Below are positions 74-63,236 of a stretch of 64,000 bases of DNA, one piece after another; position 1 is the first letter of the stretch, and each line of letters starts with the position of its first letter. The notes below the pieces were generated by a model. It did no database searches, was not told where the DNA came from, and was given only the letters and a program-made list of their open reading frames with translations. Location of the stretch: NCBI GenBank assembly GCA_031262295.1, contig JAISIA010000056.1, forward strand, positions 1 to 64,000, given 5' to 3'. The translations under genes were made by a program, and so were the position numbers. This stretch comes from Bacteroidales bacterium. Its GTDB lineage: Bacteria > Bacteroidota > Bacteroidia > Bacteroidales > P3.

Positions 74-434
74 CAATAACTTACAATTTCATATTAATTA
101 ATAAAATTTAGGGAATTTTTAATTAATTTTAGCAAATGCTTATATTTTTATTTGGGAAAAAAGAATTTTATTTGGCTTAATTTATTTTTGACGCTTGTTA
201 TTTTGATATACGAAAAATGTAATTTCAAAAAATATTTAACATTTTTTGCTTCAAATGTTAAATGCCTAAACTCCCCAAATTGGAAAATGCCATTTGCATA
301 TATCAAATCTTTTTTGTACCTTTGCCAAAATCAAAGAGCTTTTAAGGCAAAAGCATAATAATTTCCCCATAACTTATTTTTATTTTTTATTGTAAGATAA
401 TCATCTTATTATTAATTTGTTATCTTTGAATAAA

Positions 435-665
435 TCTTCGTTTTAGAAAATTAAAACGAGGTTTTAGAAAATTATTTCTTCGTTTTAGGAAAATAAAACA
501 GCGTTTTATTTGAATTTTTCTTCGTTTTTTTTCTGAAAAAATAAGATTTTGAGTTTTTTAATTAAAAATCGGGGAAAATATATTAAAATCTGTTTGGATT
601 ATATTGATAATTAATAATTTGAAAAATTGAAATTCCGTTAGGAAAAACAAAGGTCGGTTGCCGAC
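435..665. repeat. Composite intergenic element copy G: TAAAAC-NNN-GTTTTA units followed by a CCGTTAGG...GGTCGGTTGCCGAC end
   Basis: TAAAACGAGGTTTTA (452-466), TAAAACAGCGTTTTA (494-508), then ttccgttaggaaaaacaaaggtcggttgccgac (633-665). Confidence 0.75.
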
Positions 666-821
666 AAAAATTGAGTGAAATGTTAAAAATTCGTCAAATT
701 ATGTGTTTTTTATGAGGAAGAAATGTTAAAATTTGGTAGTTTTTGATGAAAAAAATGTTAAAATCTTTTGAAAAAATAATATTTTAAGTTTTTAATTTAT
801 GGAAGAAGATTATTAATTATT

Positions 822-925
822 GACTTCCTTCTGCCAAGCGGCATTTATTTACCTATCGAATTAAGAATATATAATTATAAACCAGCCTTCCGTTAGGAAA
901 AATAAAAGCCACTTGGTGGTTCGTT
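822..925. repeat. Composite intergenic element fragment with two hairpins
   Basis: gacttccttctgccaagcggcatttattt ... ccagccttccgttaggaaaaataaaagccacttggtggttcg. Confidence 0.7.
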
Positions 926-7109: not shown

Positions 7110-8573
7110 GTGAGAAAGAAGTTTATTATAAATTTATTTTTTCTTTTATTTTTAAACATCGGCATAAAATCCTTTTGGATTTTAGGAGTTGATCGTGGAG
7201 TACAAAATACTGTAAATGCAGCAGATTACGGCTTGTATTTTGCACTTTTAAACTTTTCTTTCATCTTTAATATTCTTTTAGATTTTGGATTAACTAACTA
7301 CAATAATAGATTAATTGCTCAACACCCTCAACTACTAAAAAAACATTTTGCTCAACTTCTGCCAATAAAATTTGTAATGGCAATTGTTTTTTCTTTGGTT
7401 GTTTTCCTTGTTGCTATAATCTTAGATTATGATGCTCATTCATTAAAACTTCTTTCTTTTTTATGTCTTTCTCAATTTCTTGCTTCCCTACTTTTATATC
7501 TTCGTTCAAATATATCGGGCTTACAATTATTCAAAACAGATAGTATATTGTCAGTTTTAGATAGGTTTATTGTTATAATCCTATGTTCAATACTGCTTTG
7601 GTCGGGTCTATTAAAGACAGAATTTAAGATAGAATACTTCATATTCACACAAGTCTTTGCTTATGCTTTCTCAGTTGTTGTTGCCTTTTTTATATGTATA
7701 AGAAAAACAGGATGGATAAAATTGAAATGGAATAAGGCTTTTGTGATAAAAATCATTAAAGAATCCTATCCTTATGCAATACTAATACTATTAATGTCAT
7801 TCTACAATAGAGCAGATGGAGTTATGATTGAAAGAATGCTTAATAATGGGAAACAAGAGGCGGGAATTTATGCCTCAGCCTTTCGTTTGGTTGATGCTGC
7901 TAATATGGTAGCTTATCTTTTTTCAATAATATTGCTTCCTCTTTTTTCAAGATTAATAAAGAATAAGGAAGATGTAAGACCAATAATAAAAATATCTTTT
8001 CATCTTTTATTAATGCTTACAATTTGTTTTATAGCAATAAGTCAATTTTATGGCACTGAGCTTATGGCACTAATGTATAATAAACATATAATGGAGAGTG
8101 AAGCCATTTTCAGAGTTCTTTCTTTTTGTTTTTTACCTATTTCAATGACATATATATTTGGAACATTACTAACGGCTAACGGCTCATTGAAACAACTTAA
8201 TATTGTAGCATCCTGTGGAATGGTTCTAAATATAGGGATTAACCTAATACTTATTCCTCATTTCAATGCTTTGGGTGCAGCATACTCTTCCCTAACTGCT
8301 CAAACAATAACCTCTCTTTTACAAGTTATTATTGCAATAAAAATCTTTAAAATAAAGACAAATTATGCCTACATACTAAGAATATTACTATTTGTTTTGT
8401 GCATATTCCTTACAACCTTCTTGATAAAAAATCTTAATTTCTATTGGATGTACAATATCATAATTACAGCCTTAGTAATGATAGTCCTAAGTTTTATTTT
8501 TAGAGTATTTAATATAAAAGATTTAATAACCCTAATAAAATCGTCACCAAACAAGTCAGCAACCAACTTTTAG
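7110..8573 (+). CDS. Oligosaccharide flippase / MATE-like polysaccharide biosynthesis membrane protein (GTG start)
   Basis: 487 aa multi-TM protein with Wzx-like character; C-terminus KSATNF encoded by a repeat element. Confidence 0.8.
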   Translation: MRKKFIINLFFLLFLNIGIKSFWILGVDRGVQNTVNAADYGLYFALLNFSFIFNILLDFGLTNYNNRLIAQHPQLLKKHFAQLLPIKFVMAIVFSLVVFLVAIILDYDAHSLKLLSFLCLSQFLASLLLYLRSNISGLQLFKTDSILSVLDRFIVIILCSILLWSGLLKTEFKIEYFIFTQVFAYAFSVVVAFFICIRKTGWIKLKWNKAFVIKIIKESYPYAILILLMSFYNRADGVMIERMLNNGKQEAGIYASAFRLVDAANMVAYLFSIILLPLFSRLIKNKEDVRPIIKISFHLLLMLTICFIAISQFYGTELMALMYNKHIMESEAIFRVLSFCFLPISMTYIFGTLLTANGSLKQLNIVASCGMVLNIGINLILIPHFNALGAAYSSLTAQTITSLLQVIIAIKIFKIKTNYAYILRILLFVLCIFLTTFLIKNLNFYWMYNIIITALVMIVLSFIFRVFNIKDLITLIKSSPNKSATNF

Positions 8574-8700
8574 TCGGCAACCGACCTTTAATTTTCCTAA
8601 CGGAACTTAGGGTAGTTGTTTTATAAATCATTAATCCGACAGGTTAATAAATACCGCTTGGCGGTCGGAAGTCTGGTTTTACATTTATATATTTTTCTTT
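8555..8700. repeat. Composite intergenic element copy H (left half)
   Basis: gtcagcaaccaacttttagtcggcaaccgacctttaattttcctaacggaac ... accgcttggcggtcggaagtctggttttacatttatatat. Confidence 0.8.
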
Positions 8701-9204: not shown

Positions 9205-9297
9205 CTCCTGCCGACAAAACGCTGTTTTAATTTACTAAAACGAAGAAATAATTTATTAAAACGAAGAAATAATTTATTAAAACTTCGTTTTAATCTT
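9205..9297. repeat. 21-bp repeat array (inverted orientation) with partial element end
   Basis: cctgccgacaaaacgctgttttaatttactaaaacgaagaaataatttattaaaacgaagaaataatttattaaaacttcgtttta. Confidence 0.8.
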
Positions 9298-9482: not shown

Positions 9483-10625
9483 TTATCTCATTTTCTCAAC
9501 CACTTCCTTTGTCTTCTCTATCCGCTTGTCCGCCCATTCCACCACATTTTTGATAACTATTTTTTGCATTGCTTTAATGTAAGTTGACATAAAGGCGTAG
9601 TCGGGAGTGTGATCGGATTTTACGGGGAGAATAATTATATCTTTTTGAATTTTCTTATTTGAAATACTATCGCCCCAACTATACAAAGGCGAAAGAGATT
9701 TAGTTATAGTAGTTACCAAAAATAGTTGAATAAGTTTTGTTCTTTTTTCGGATTCTTTTAAATATAGAGCCAAATTATGACTATCGTTTGAAAAATAATC
9801 TTTTTCTTGATAAGTTACTACAAAAGTCTTTCCACCTATAAAAATACTATTTCCCTCATCTATCAAATTTTCTTCAAATTCAATATAAGTCCCAACCGCA
9901 TTATTATTATTACTTGCAGTTAAATATGGAGTATTACCGCTATTTTCTACTATATAACGAGACAAAATATTATGAGTATTTTTTACTGTAAATATGTCGC
10001 CAACAATCTTAAATTCTCTCCACTCCACTTTGTCAATATCCGCCAACACCTGCACCTCTTCGCTTGTAAGTATATAATCTTTAAGATTAGTAATTGTTAA
10101 ATACGCTTCGAGCGTAGCGAGACGCTCCGCTTCGAGCGTAGCGATAAACTCCTCTATGTAGTCGAAGGCAATTTCTGATCCTTTGTACGGAATGTCAATT
10201 TCGTAGTTATTCATTTCATCAAGTTTGTACCCTGATTGTTGTCCATCATATTGAGAAACGAAATTTTGAATATATGTCATAAAGAATTTGGCGAGTTTTT
10301 CATTGATATTAAATTTTGGTGTTAGTTTGTTAATATTTTGTGAAACATAATAAGGTTCCTTTTGATATTTTACATACTTGTAATTTCCAATAACCGTTGC
10401 TGTTATGGTAAATGGAGCATTTGGTTCAAAATTTTGTTTTATAATTTTTCCTTGAATTCCATTAAACTCAAAAGTTCTCCCAATAAAATTTATACCAGAA
10501 TCAACAAAAGTTAATTTTCCCGCATCCAAGGATTTTGTTCCTGTAATATCAAATAATCTTTCTAATTTTACTTTACGCCAGTCAATACAGTGTTTTTTTT
10601 CGAGTGCCAATAACTCATTCTGCAT
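9483..10625 (-). CDS. Restriction-modification specificity subunit (BcgI B / HsdS-like, two target-recognition domains)
   Basis: Two half-repeats: WRKVKLERLFDI... and WREFKIVGDIFTV..., joined by IATLEAERLATLEAYL. Confidence 0.88.
   Translation of the reverse strand: MQNELLALEKKHCIDWRKVKLERLFDITGTKSLDAGKLTFVDSGINFIGRTFEFNGIQGKIIKQNFEPNAPFTITATVIGNYKYVKYQKEPYYVSQNINKLTPKFNINEKLAKFFMTYIQNFVSQYDGQQSGYKLDEMNNYEIDIPYKGSEIAFDYIEEFIATLEAERLATLEAYLTITNLKDYILTSEEVQVLADIDKVEWREFKIVGDIFTVKNTHNILSRYIVENSGNTPYLTASNNNNAVGTYIEFEENLIDEGNSIFIGGKTFVVTYQEKDYFSNDSHNLALYLKESEKRTKLIQLFLVTTITKSLSPLYSWGDSISNKKIQKDIIILPVKSDHTPDYAFMSTYIKAMQKIVIKNVVEWADKRIEKTKEVVEKMR
10104..10144. repeat. 24-bp-period direct repeat in the specificity-subunit linker
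   Basis: CGCTTCGAGCGTAGCGA at 10104-10120 and 10128-10144. Confidence 0.9.
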
Positions 10626-10636
10626 CGACTGGCGGT

Positions 10637-12700
10637 CTATTTTCCCAAGCAGTCCTCCTCCTTCTTTAAGAGTTGATTAACCTCCCACGCCAGATAGTCG
10701 GCCACCGTTTTTCTAAAATCGTTGAAAGTGGGTTTTGTGTCAATAGGCGATGTTTGATTCCAGTCAGCACCATTTTTAGAGTCTATAGTGTTTTCGTAGT
10801 ATTCTTTTTCAGTAAAGATATTTAGTTTTGATTTTCCAAAAAGCACCAAATTCACCAATTCTTCGTATCGTTCTTTGGCATGGTCAGTATCTTTCAGGTT
10901 ATTACTTGCTTTTTTGCGATTGGTGCGAGTGTAACCATCATTAGAAAAATCAATAAATTTTACAATATCATCTCTTTTGTGAGATTCATTTACTCTAAAT
11001 ACATAGATATTGGTTTGAACGCTTGATTTTCCTACAAATAAATCAGCAGGCATTTTTATACTTGCAAGTAATGTATGCTTTTTCAAAATTCGTATATTAA
11101 ATTCTTTGGCTCTCCCCGTGCCAGCTGAACTCTGAATAATAATTGCAGCATAACCTTTATTCATCATTCCCAATGCTTTTTCTACAAAGTTCATTCCGTT
11201 ACCTTCAGCAGAGTATGGGGGATTGAGTATAAAGGCGTCAGCAGGAAAATTAGTGTCGGTTTTACCAAATCCATATTTCCCGTCAAAATCTGTTATAGAA
11301 TTTTTATTTAATATATTGGAACTTCCGTCTCCCATCAAAATCATATTGAGAATTGCTAGCATATATACACTTGAAAGAATTTCCAAACCAAGTAGCTGTT
11401 CGGCTTTTATTTTCATCTCTTTTTTAGATAATTCGTTCGGCGAAGTAATAGTATTTCTGGCATCTATAAGCATTTCGTTCATAGCAGCAATCAAAAGTCC
11501 GGCTGAACCAGTTGCAAAATCCCAAACATAAGAATCTTTGTTTACTCTTGCCAATTTCACCAGCAAAGTTGCAACATACGATGGAGTAAGCACCACATCA
11601 TTCAGTTTATCCTGCGTAAAACCAAGCCAAGAGTACATCTCATTGAACAATTTACCCGTAAAATCGGTTGTTAGCCCGATTTTGTAGTAGATACCCAAAT
11701 CATCCACAATTTTGGTAAATAAACATTTTAATTGGCTTTCGCCATTTTCAACTTTATTTATGTTTTCCGTTAAAAGCGTATTTGATAATGTTCTTATAAT
11801 TAAATCTTTCTTTTCGTTAGGTAAATTCTTTTCGTTTAAAAAAGAAGTGATTTTACGCACTAAAATATCGCCGTCTTTATTGCCGTTTTCGTCAGAAGAT
11901 TTTAAATCATCCTTTGAGAGAGGCGAAACTTTCCCCGGTATTCCAAGCGTTGCAATAATTGAAGCGGCAACAAGATAAACGCGGTCGCCTTCACTCAATC
12001 CCTTTCCTTTGTCATCGTTGTAAATGTCATTGTTCAATTTTGTCAAACTGATGTCTATTGCTTTTTCTCGCTGTTCCTTTATTTTATCAAGTTCTTCTTG
12101 CGAAAGATTTAATGTTTTGACGTTTTCAATAAAAGCATCAAAATTTTTCTTTGCCAAAAAAGACAAATCAGAATAATTACCAACTTTCTGACCACTGCCA
12201 AAATTAGATTTTGAAACATAATACACTCCTATTTCAGGAATTATATTTTCGTTTTCATCTTTGTATCCCGTCATGCCAATTGCTATAATGTCGGCATAAC
12301 TCGTATGGTGAAGCAAAGCATTAGCATAATGCACACCTCCATTTACAGCATAAGAATTTATATTTTTGAATTTAGGTTCGTTTTTTTCATTTCGGTTATC
12401 CACTTTCCCATCGCTATCAAGTCTTACAAGTTTATCCTTATACCCTTTATACTCAATTAAAACAGGATAATAATTCAAATTTTTATCTTGTAGCAAAAGT
12501 TTGGCATCCGGACGATTTGCTCCCGTGCCCCCCGTTTTTGAAAAATAATCTAAAAGTGCCTTGTCTATTTCAGCATTTAACGATTCCTGTTCCAATTTGT
12601 AATCCAAATCATAAGATTTCAGCCAACCATTTGCTAAATCTGCGATATTAGGCTCAATTGATTGAACTTTTATTTTTTTAACCATAAATAAACTAAACAT
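10637..12700 (-). CDS. BcgI A-like restriction nuclease/N6-adenine methyltransferase fusion
   Basis: N-terminal RPDAKLLL...YYPVLIEYKGYKDKL (PD-(D/E)XK-like), C-terminal MTase with ADAFILNPPYS and FATGSAGLLIAAM. Confidence 0.8.
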   Translation of the reverse strand: MFSLFMVKKIKVQSIEPNIADLANGWLKSYDLDYKLEQESLNAEIDKALLDYFSKTGGTGANRPDAKLLLQDKNLNYYPVLIEYKGYKDKLVRLDSDGKVDNRNEKNEPKFKNINSYAVNGGVHYANALLHHTSYADIIAIGMTGYKDENENIIPEIGVYYVSKSNFGSGQKVGNYSDLSFLAKKNFDAFIENVKTLNLSQEELDKIKEQREKAIDISLTKLNNDIYNDDKGKGLSEGDRVYLVAASIIATLGIPGKVSPLSKDDLKSSDENGNKDGDILVRKITSFLNEKNLPNEKKDLIIRTLSNTLLTENINKVENGESQLKCLFTKIVDDLGIYYKIGLTTDFTGKLFNEMYSWLGFTQDKLNDVVLTPSYVATLLVKLARVNKDSYVWDFATGSAGLLIAAMNEMLIDARNTITSPNELSKKEMKIKAEQLLGLEILSSVYMLAILNMILMGDGSSNILNKNSITDFDGKYGFGKTDTNFPADAFILNPPYSAEGNGMNFVEKALGMMNKGYAAIIIQSSAGTGRAKEFNIRILKKHTLLASIKMPADLFVGKSSVQTNIYVFRVNESHKRDDIVKFIDFSNDGYTRTNRKKASNNLKDTDHAKERYEELVNLVLFGKSKLNIFTEKEYYENTIDSKNGADWNQTSPIDTKPTFNDFRKTVADYLAWEVNQLLKKEEDCLGK

Positions 12701-12845: not shown

Positions 12846-12930
12846 CGACTTCCGTTAGAAAAAATAAATGCCTGTTGCAGGTTAAATGCCGCTTGGCGGT
12901 CGGTTGCCGACTAAATGCCCGTTGGCGGTC
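12846..12930. repeat. Composite intergenic element copy I: a run of short hairpins
   Basis: gacttccgttagaaaaaataaatgcctgttgcaggttaaatgccgcttggcggtcggttgccgactaaatgcccgttggcggtc. Confidence 0.85.
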
Positions 12931-14086
12931 TTGGGATTTTTACAATGAATTGTTCTCCTTCAATATCATTTACCCATTCTATATTTGGTTGTTCTTTAAT
13001 TGCTCGTCTAATACCTGTTCCTAAACCGCTAAAAGGCATAGTATGTTGGGCAAAAGAGACCAATTGATTGTTTCTTATTATAGGATTTCCATACTTTATA
13101 TCTTCTACTGTTAAGCTATTGGGTAGTTTGCCCGGACTTATGATTTCAATCCTATTGTCAAAAATTAATATACGAATGGGAGAGTTTTTGAAATAATCTC
13201 TATGTATAAGGGCATTTTGAATTAGTTCTATTAGGGCTATTTCTGAAATTTCAAGTCTTCCTATTGAGTTAAAGCCTTGTTCATATTGTAAGTGTTTTAG
13301 GTTGGATTTAAAAAAACATATAGCCTCTTCAAATAGTTTAGGAATAGTCCCTCTAAAATCAGCAGGTTTATTTCTATATTGATTGTTAGAAATATCATTA
13401 CCAATAAAAGATATAGCTTTAATGGTAAAGGCGGGCTTTATGCTTTGAGGGTCATTGCCAAAAAATAAAAGACCAGCCAAAGAAATATGTCCATTATGTA
13501 AAATTCGCTTAGCTTTTAGTGCTTCTTCAAAGGTTAAACCTTTTTCTTGATAAGTAAAACCAAAGTCTTTTTTAAAATAATCTGCAAATACATCTTTGTT
13601 TATATCATCAATACTTGTTCCATAAACTTCCATTTCATCAGCCAATAGATTAGCACTGCTTTGAAATAGACGCATTATTTCAAAATTGTCAGTAAGCAAG
13701 CGTTTATTGGAACCCTGTTTTACATATATTTCTCCCTTTGCTGTTTTATATGGTTTATTAATCCCTTCTTTAACATGTATAACCAATACATTTTTTATTG
13801 AATTATCCACATCAATTTTAATCACTTCTGTATTTACATACACCACAGGTTTTATATTATCTGCAATTTGAGATATAATTCTGTCATATTCTTCAATTTG
13901 TTCAGATATAAGTCCTATTATTTCTCCCGTTACATCTCTAATGCCAATAAGAATAATACCACCCAAAGAATTGGACATTGCAACAATTTCTTGAGTTATG
14001 CTATCCTTATGAGGAAGTTCTTCTTTAAATTGTACCGTACTTGTTTCGCCAGTGGAGATAATATCTAAAAATTCGCTTGTGTTCAT
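12911..14086 (-). CDS. AlbA_2 (Schlafen-type) putative DNA-binding / ATP-binding protein
   Basis: TVQFKEELPHKDSITQEIVAMSNSLGGIILIGI and LIELIQNALIHRDYFKNSPIRILIFDNRIEIISPGKLP. Confidence 0.88.
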   Translation of the reverse strand: MNTSEFLDIISTGETSTVQFKEELPHKDSITQEIVAMSNSLGGIILIGIRDVTGEIIGLISEQIEEYDRIISQIADNIKPVVYVNTEVIKIDVDNSIKNVLVIHVKEGINKPYKTAKGEIYVKQGSNKRLLTDNFEIMRLFQSSANLLADEMEVYGTSIDDINKDVFADYFKKDFGFTYQEKGLTFEEALKAKRILHNGHISLAGLLFFGNDPQSIKPAFTIKAISFIGNDISNNQYRNKPADFRGTIPKLFEEAICFFKSNLKHLQYEQGFNSIGRLEISEIALIELIQNALIHRDYFKNSPIRILIFDNRIEIISPGKLPNSLTVEDIKYGNPIIRNNQLVSFAQHTMPFSGLGTGIRRAIKEQPNIEWVNDIEGEQFIVKIPRPPTGI

Positions 14087-14253: not shown

Positions 14254-14320
14254 TATATAAATGTAAAATACCTGCCTTCCGTAGGACAAAGTAAAGGTCG
14301 GTTGCCGACCGGTTGCCGAC
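14254..14320. repeat. Composite intergenic element copy J (short)
   Basis: tataaatgtaaaatacctgccttccgtaggacaaagtaaaggtcggttgccgaccggttgccgac. Confidence 0.8.
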
Positions 14321-24232: not shown

Positions 24233-24455
24233 GTCGGCAACCGACCTTTATTTTTCCTAACGGTCGGCAACCGACCTTTATTTTTCCTAACGGAAGTCTG
24301 GTTTTATATTTATATATTTATAATTCAAAAAAAATAAATCTTCGTTTCAGTAAATTATTTCTTCGTTTCAGTAAATTATTTCTTCGTTTTAATAAATTAT
24401 TTCTTCGTTTTAGTAAATTATTTCTTCGTTTTAGTAAATTGAAGATTTATATATA
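24233..24455. repeat. Composite intergenic element copy A: duplicated left end plus 21-bp array
   Basis: gtcggcaaccgacctttatttttcctaacg repeated twice, then TAAATTATTTCTTCGTTT(C/T)A(G/A) units (24335-24440). Confidence 0.9.
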
Positions 24456-35883: not shown

Positions 35884-36097
35884 GTCGGCAACCAACCGCC
35901 AAGCGGCTTTTAGTTGTCCTTACGGAAGTATGATTGTTTTTTTAATTCCATAAAATAAATCTTCGTTTAAAAAAAATAAATCTTCGTTTTAGCAAATTAT
36001 TTCTTCGTTTTAGTAAATTATTTCTTCGTTTTAGTAAATTATTTCTTCGTTTTAGTAAAATAAAACCTTGTTTTATTTTACTAAAACAAGGTTTTAT
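35884..36097. repeat. Composite intergenic element copy B: left end, 21-bp array, terminal 16-bp hairpin
   Basis: gtcggcaaccaaccgccaagcggcttttagttgtccttacggaag ... (TAAATTATTTCTTCGTTTTAG)n ... ATAAAACCTTGTTTTA-ttttac-TAAAACAAGGTTTTAT. Confidence 0.9.
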
Positions 36098-54822: not shown

Positions 54823-55212
54823 GTCGGCAACCGACCTTTATTTGACCACCTTCGTGGCTTTTATTCGTCCTTGCGGGTCGGCAACCGACTTTTAATAAGT
54901 TTGGTTTTATATTTATAAGTTTATAAATCAATAAAAATAAAACGAAGATTAAAAAAATTAAAACAGCGTTTTATAAAATTATTTCTTCGTTTTAGTAAAT
55001 TATTTCTTCGTTTTAATAAATTATTTCTTCGTTTTAATAAATTATTTCTTCGTTTTAATAAATTATTTCTTCGTTTTAATAAATTATTTCTTCGTTTTAG
55101 TAAATTAAAACAGCGTTTTAGTAAAATAAAATAGTGATTTATAAAATAAAATAGTGATTTATAAAATTGCTTATCCGACTTCCGTTAGGAAAAATAAAGG
55201 TCGGTTGCCGAC
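54823..55212. repeat. Composite intergenic element copy E (full-length, about 390 bp, both inverted ends)
   Basis: gtcggcaaccgacctttatttgaccaccttcgtggcttttattcgtccttgcgggtcggcaaccgac ... long 21-bp array ... gacttccgttaggaaaaataaaggtcggttgccgac. Confidence 0.93.
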
Positions 55213-63067: not shown

Positions 63068-63236
63068 TAGAAAACAGCGTTTTTTCAAAAAAAATGCTGT
63101 TTTTTTTATTTCTAAAACAAAGAAATAATTTCCTAAATTCTTATTTTAATTTTCTAAAACGAAGAAATAATTTATTAAAACGAAGAAATAATTTGCTAAA
63201 ACGAAGAAATAATTTATTAAATCTTCGTTTTAGGCG
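63068..63236. repeat. Intergenic 21-bp repeat array (inverted orientation), copy F
   Basis: aaaacgaagaaataatttattaaaacgaagaaataatttgctaaaacgaagaaataatttattaaatcttcgtttta. Confidence 0.88.
63071..63105. terminator. Terminator-like hairpin downstream of the threonine dehydrogenase-like gene
   Basis: AAAACAGC...GCTGTTTTTTTT. Confidence 0.7.

Follow-up and report, generated by a model that had tools for sequence, protein, structure and literature searches.

TTG-loop hairpins in a Bacteroidales genome are probably the terminal part of a species-specific, untagged, REP-like palindrome

Short hairpins with an invariant TTG loop recur throughout the window, i.e. the whole 64-kb stretch of DNA that was analyzed. 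We conclude that they are probably the terminal hairpin (hairpin A) of an untagged, REP-like, non-autonomous palindrome that is specific to this species and probably spread via a folded single strand. The species-specific high copy number, the sharp end, the inverted pairs, and the nested units argue for a non-autonomous mobile palindrome, and the conserved pairing indicates that the folded strand matters. That the element is mobile is inferred from its copy number and its context.

Results

The repeated module is ~40 nt long and consists of two hairpins, B and A, with an A-rich spacer between them. On the TTG strand it reads, 5' to 3', CCAGACTTCC-GNNA-GGA(C/A)AAnTAAA-[GYCNS-TTG-S'N'GRC]. The TTG hairpins quoted in the first-pass annotation were all present in the sequence at the coordinates given there and correspond to hairpin A, the outer (terminal) end of the module. 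When copies were aligned on hairpin A, the information content rose abruptly at its first base and extended for ~40 nt on one side only. The 3' end of the module is sharply fixed at hairpin A and the 5' extent is variable, the length of the consensus match upstream of hairpin A differing between copies. Of 76 modules keeping the 5' part, 65 also kept hairpin A, and several of the remaining 11 were nested inverted copies.

The loop of hairpin B was G-N-A or G-NN-A in 156 of 160 copies (GTTA in 83, GCAA in 31, GTA in 24, besides others), i.e. the middle letters vary and the G and A at the ends are constant. Loops of the type G(1-2N)A closed by a C-G pair are unusually stable in DNA, and the RNA GNRA rule was obeyed by only 37 of the 160 loops (GCAA or GTAA). 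The G..A loops of hairpin B thus fit DNA mini-hairpin loops better than RNA GNRA loops. Hairpin A occurred with ~10 perfectly paired stems, all of them with the loop TTG and with an invariant G at the foot. GTCGG, GCCGC, GCCCG, GCCAC, and GCCTG were the commonest, GTCGG accounting for 119 of 188 copies. In predicted folding energy, single modules did not stand out from shuffled sequences.

The cluster at 12846-12930 opens with a module whose hairpin B is degenerate (CTTCC-GTTA-GAA, 12849-12860, + strand). Three hairpins A with TTG loops follow on the same strand, with the stems CCTG/CAGG (12871-12881), CCGC/GCGG (12889-12899, a tandem 5'-truncated unit at a spacing of 18 bp), and GTCGG/CCGAC (12899-12911, 11 bp from the previous unit). 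They had been described as three consecutive units with covarying stems. The units are indeed there, but as tandem 5'-truncated copies of one module and not as independent hairpins, and the description left out a fourth unit (CCCG-TTG-GCGG, 12918-12928, +), which is mismatched, being a chimera of two stem classes that lies within the last codons of an SLFN_AlbA_2 ORF.

Further modules on the + strand of the window lie at 634-665 (hairpins B and A, inside an interspersed repeat of ~0.9 kb), 883-920 (stem class GCCAC/GTGGT), 8633-8665 (hairpin B loop GACA, stem class CCGC/GCGG), and 14272-14320, where the end of the module is repeated in tandem at 11 bp. On the - strand they were found at 8573-8610 (stem class GTCGG, immediately 3' of the stop codon of the ORF 7110-8573), 24233-24300 (two tandem modules spaced by 30 bp), 35895-35932 (GCCGC/GCGGT), and 48311-48343 (CCGC).

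Pairing of hairpin A was evaluated in several ways. In the window, 16 perfect hairpins had a loop of 3 nt and four or more G/C in the stem, and the loop of every one was TTG or CAA, compared with 0-5 such hairpins with any loop and 0-2 with TTG/CAA in first-order Markov controls of the same composition. For the covariation analysis, 86 distinct modules were picked by their upstream half plus TTG with pairing ignored. Pairing of hairpin A amounted to 99.1% in this set, both sides changed at four of the five pairs, and one position showed all four Watson-Crick pairs. Doubly changed cells numbered 84 versus 24 ± 6 in column shuffles, which bears out the earlier claim of compensating stem changes around a constant loop, and they dropped to 0-9 when the partners were slid by 1-3 columns. 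With the upstream half alone as the anchor, a perfect hairpin of at least 4 bp was found at 95 of 114 sites, 92 of them with the loop TTG; shuffled downstream sequence behind the same anchor yielded 1.3 perfect hairpins. The copies of hairpin A have pairing in common, not sequence, and the covariation is statistically real. Since the stem letters change in matched pairs, the fold is preserved.

Uncompensated stems were encountered at roughly a dozen of ~240 hairpin-bearing sites. So few cases give no sign of the uncompensated substitutions at the rate of flanking DNA that, according to the first-pass annotation, would make the covariation coincidental. Mismatched chimeric stems were seen at 12918-12928 of the window and at L150:9332. 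In a tenfold tandem array (L165, 1310-2020), the stem GTCGG/CCGAC leads via the wobble form GTTGG/CCGAC to the re-paired form GTTGG/CCAAC. One-sided changes favored G.T pairs on the TTG strand, with 9 G.T versus 4 A.C at the third pair from the loop and 62 G.T versus 0 A.C at the outer pair of hairpin A; the strand asymmetry of hairpin B was weak (6 versus 4). Because relatedness inflates covariation counts, the safe statement is that perfect pairing holds in each of about ten stem types; with one stem dominating, the evidence rests on these and not on hundreds of independent changes. The first-pass annotation had taken the covariation as a signature of selection on a folded strand. The covariation itself stands, but the step to selection does not follow from it, because compensating changes in palindromes can also arise by template switching during replication (PMC8794818).

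The host genome is a draft assembly of an uncultured Bacteroidales bacterium (2.04 Mb, 89 contigs, 30% GC, 99.4% complete). Proteins related to one encoded in the window come mostly from Bacteroidales MAGs. Most statistics reported here cover 0.76-1.15 Mb of this genome, and whole-genome counts were obtained by genome search. The exact 13-mer GTCGGTTGCCGAC occurred 203 times in the host genome, 110 and 93 times on the two strands, and the reversed 13-mer serving as a control did not occur at all. The module covariance model retrieved at least 181 modules. Outside the host, the exact 13-mer was absent from ten congeners and reached at most two occurrences per genome across the 60 relatives searched. 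A covariance-model scan of 148 other genomes of the family, run with stricter filters than the host scan so that weak matches can be missed, gave no module match in ten sampled congeners and one borderline match each in four genomes (E 0.003-0.007). Two single matches with two mismatches were the yield of a 24-nt module-derived pattern in ~390 other Bacteroidales genomes, at a sensitivity at which only 79 copies were listed for the host genome itself. There was no match to the module in viral contigs and plasmids and none to Rfam 15 at gathering thresholds anywhere in the window, nor was a description of this repeat family found in the open-licence literature. Judged from these sequence searches, the module is amplified in this Bacteroidales species only, as far as sampled.

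The modules are mainly intergenic, with densities, based on simple ORF predictions, of 2.45/kb between convergent, 1.25/kb between tandem, and 0.36/kb between divergent genes. They are scattered among ordinary genes and do not form cassette arrays, and integron attC sites were dropped as a candidate on account of this placement. Same-strand units were spaced by 11, 21-23, 30-33, 41-44, or 82-87 bp, each tandem unit ending in an intact hairpin A and starting at a differing point. Token analysis of composites yielded the grammar A- B- array B+ A+, i.e. inverted modules around a 21-bp AT-rich array, with hairpin A nearly always pointing outward. Terminal inverted repeats of the MITE type are thus present in that the modules form the inverted ends of the composites. 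One such composite spans 41353-41617, with the left module at 41353-41390 (-), the array at 41429-41510 (-), and the right module together with a 21-bp truncated unit at 41559-41617 (+). Another spans 54823-55212, with two left-facing hairpins A at 54823-54889 (-), the array at 54967-55107 (-), and the right module at 55175-55212 (+).

The proposal of the first-pass annotation that a dedicated Y1/TnpA_REP transposase might reside in the genome was not substantiated: neither Y1 transposase (PF01797) nor RAYT (NF047646) was found in the host draft genome, with positive controls for both. Reverse transcriptase (RVT_1), relaxase, and DDE_Tnp_1 transposase were likewise not detected there. The search for Y2_Tnp, the only other mobilizer family included, was uninformative because no control gave a signal. 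An all-against-all comparison of ORFs from 1.04 Mb revealed no multicopy transposase-like ORF family that could represent an autonomous parent. A mobilizer of the module would thus be unrecognized or lost.

Discussion

Hairpins close to stop codons invite the idea that they act as transcription terminators or stabilizers of mRNA 3' ends, given that the CAA strand carries a GC hairpin followed by CTTTATTTTT; a composite between convergent genes would then halt transcription from both sides. The enrichment between convergent genes agrees with such a role, as do the G.T pairs in the stem covariation and the CAA sense, by 30:1, of the first hairpin within 60 nt past a stop codon, often only 5-20 nt behind it. 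Within 150 nt of a start codon, however, TTG faces the start by 14:1, and this outward orientation at starts as well as stops implies that orientation follows the geometry of the element and not transcription. Tandem gene pairs likewise revealed no overall strand bias (33 versus 29), so that the orientation bias relative to transcription expected of intrinsic terminators was not observed. Moreover, the stem comprises only 5 bp, the hairpins are species-specific, and several modules are immediately preceded by a canonical terminator of full length. Such canonical terminators were no less frequent where a hairpin lay within 40 nt of the stop codon (9 of 19) than where there was none (37 of 91), and a replacement of terminators by the hairpins was rejected on the same figures. 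A terminator function therefore appears quite unlikely to us.

Mutation alone might also keep the pairing, if template switching during replication (quasipalindrome correction) turns mismatches into new perfect stems. This mechanism is documented (PMC8794818, PMC7202029), and it would suit the separation of the stems into perfectly paired classes with few mismatched forms between them as well as the chimeric arms and the wobble-to-paired series within one tandem array. It leaves unexplained why the TTG loop, the G at the stem foot, and the G..A ends of the hairpin B loop are constant, and it accounts neither for amplification nor for the fixed boundary at hairpin A; as the explanation of the hairpins we regard it as unlikely. 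That one exact 13-mer occurs in very high copy and in both orientations could, on the other hand, mean that it serves for recognition, for instance in DNA uptake or in the binding of a nucleoid-associated protein. Uptake and binding signals are conserved in sequence and are present in genes too. In the present repeat, the stems differ in sequence but still pair, and the majority of copies lie between genes as part of a 40-nt module, rendering a recognition signal highly improbable.

We thus prefer the non-autonomous mobile palindrome. One of the two strands (most likely that with TTG) would fold while single-stranded, and hairpin A would be the structural signal that is recognized or primed during copying. 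Any stem that pairs and presents the TTG loop would suffice. Such a copying signal would keep pairing without keeping sequence and would leave copies intact at hairpin A and shortened at the other end. The G..A loops, the G.T bias of hairpin A on the TTG strand, and the analogy to REPINs lead us to infer that the folded strand is DNA. The mover may be an unrecognized trans-acting protein or a lost enzyme; alternatively, the replication and repair machinery of the host may act on the palindromes. It is conceivable, if rather doubtful, that spread needs no dedicated transposase at all, host replication or repair copying the folded TTG strand from hairpin A and the copying itself keeping the pairing. 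Copying started at hairpin A would yield copies that all end in the 3' hairpin but are truncated to differing degrees at the 5' end.

Among known systems, the REPs of the GTAG and CGTC superfamilies are short high-copy palindromes that lie 3' of ORFs where neighboring genes are tandem or convergent. Their subfamilies differ in stem residues that remain complementary, and they contain G.T pairs; the loops are very short, many of those in GTAG families being CMA (CAA), and inverted dimers and mosaic clusters are frequent; CGTC families, reported from Bacteroidetes, lack a dedicated transposase (PMC3733652). The module shares much of this: it is a short, high-copy, mainly intergenic palindrome in tandem and convergent settings, with alternative complementary stems, G.T pairs, a CAA-type loop, and inverted dimers, and as for CGTC REPs, no dedicated transposase was detected. 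Unlike GTAG and CGTC REPs, it consists of two different hairpins with an A-rich spacer, its inverted pairs enclose 21-bp satellite arrays, and no RAYT or IS200-type gene was detected in its host genome. It also lacks the tag, an unpaired GTAG or CGTC tetranucleotide at one end of the hairpin, any of the four tag strings occurring within 6 nt in only 5 of 225 hairpins. Membership in either superfamily fails for want of the tag, and "untagged, REP-like" is the most fitting designation for the family.

REPINs are inverted doublets proposed to be a mobile unit that folds as single-stranded DNA, and their clusters arise from tandem and nested copies (PMC3116915). The modules similarly form inverted doublets and tandem and nested clusters. 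They differ from the REPIN/RAYT system in that their genome has no detected RAYT, and from REPINs in that 100-400 bp, including arrays, separate the two halves of a doublet and in that many modules are single or in tandem. The small dispersed repeats (SDRs) of cyanobacteria are very small, untagged intergenic hairpins that are apparently mobile, with no enzyme known to move them. The module, too, is very small, untagged, and intergenic, and no mobilizing enzyme was found for it, but its sequence and phylum are unrelated and it has two hairpins. SDRs are named in PMC3116915. Mitochondrial GC clusters, double-hairpin elements, and RHEs have invaded intergenic regions in a lineage-specific manner with no known mobilizing enzyme (PMC4478555, PMC2800124). 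As a lineage-specific intergenic (double) hairpin the module is like them in behavior only; those elements are organellar and unrelated in sequence.

How tiny enzyme-less bacterial palindromes multiply is an open question, left open for CGTC and untagged REPs in PMC3733652. The family described here is dense and species-specific, with clear boundaries, many stem classes, graded truncations, and no recognized Y1, reverse transcriptase, or DDE_Tnp_1 gene, and these properties allow spread by an enzyme and spread by replication to be tested as competing explanations in this genome. They also illustrate that covarying repeats are not necessarily functional RNAs.

Neighboring repeats and genes

The ~0.9-kb noncoding interspersed repeat, present in the window at 194-908 (+) with one module inside, was also found at L031 8811-9788, L033 4974-5997, and L042 8005-9022 and has at least 40 copies in the host genome; several draft contigs end within it. 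It contains a conserved promoter of the Bacteroidota type (TACCTTTGCC) and a palindrome TTTAACATTT...AAATGTTAAA, followed by three downstream AAATGTTAAA boxes. A 205-nt probe gave only short promoter-like matches in congeners. A role as a gene promoter was rejected, the orientation of downstream genes being unbiased. The repeat may represent a noncoding RNA in multiple copies; alternatively, it may be a mobile element.

The unit of the 21-bp AT-rich arrays is TCTTCGTTTTAGTAAATTATT, and variants of it hold AAAAC-NNN-GTTTT mini-hairpins. Besides the two arrays between inverted modules, arrays occur in the window at 435-528, 9228-9283, 24339-24440 (-, beside a module), 35951-36075 (-), 48387-48502 (-), and 63147-63221. 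Related short arrays are found at lower density in congeners, and the 21-bp arrays therefore probably predate the TTG modules. Other intergenic palindrome arrays in relatives (AAAGATGTGCATCTTT; TGACATACCCATGTCA), located upstream of a glycogen debranching enzyme gene (L066 and L070), suggest repeated lineage-specific turnover of such repeats.

The SLFN_AlbA_2 gene (12911-14086, -) runs into the hairpin cluster, which supplies its stop codon, so that the element forms the C terminus of the protein. Adjoining it are type I restriction-modification genes (N6_Mtase and Methylase_S, 9483-12700, -), and together these genes possibly constitute a small defense cluster bounded by repeats.
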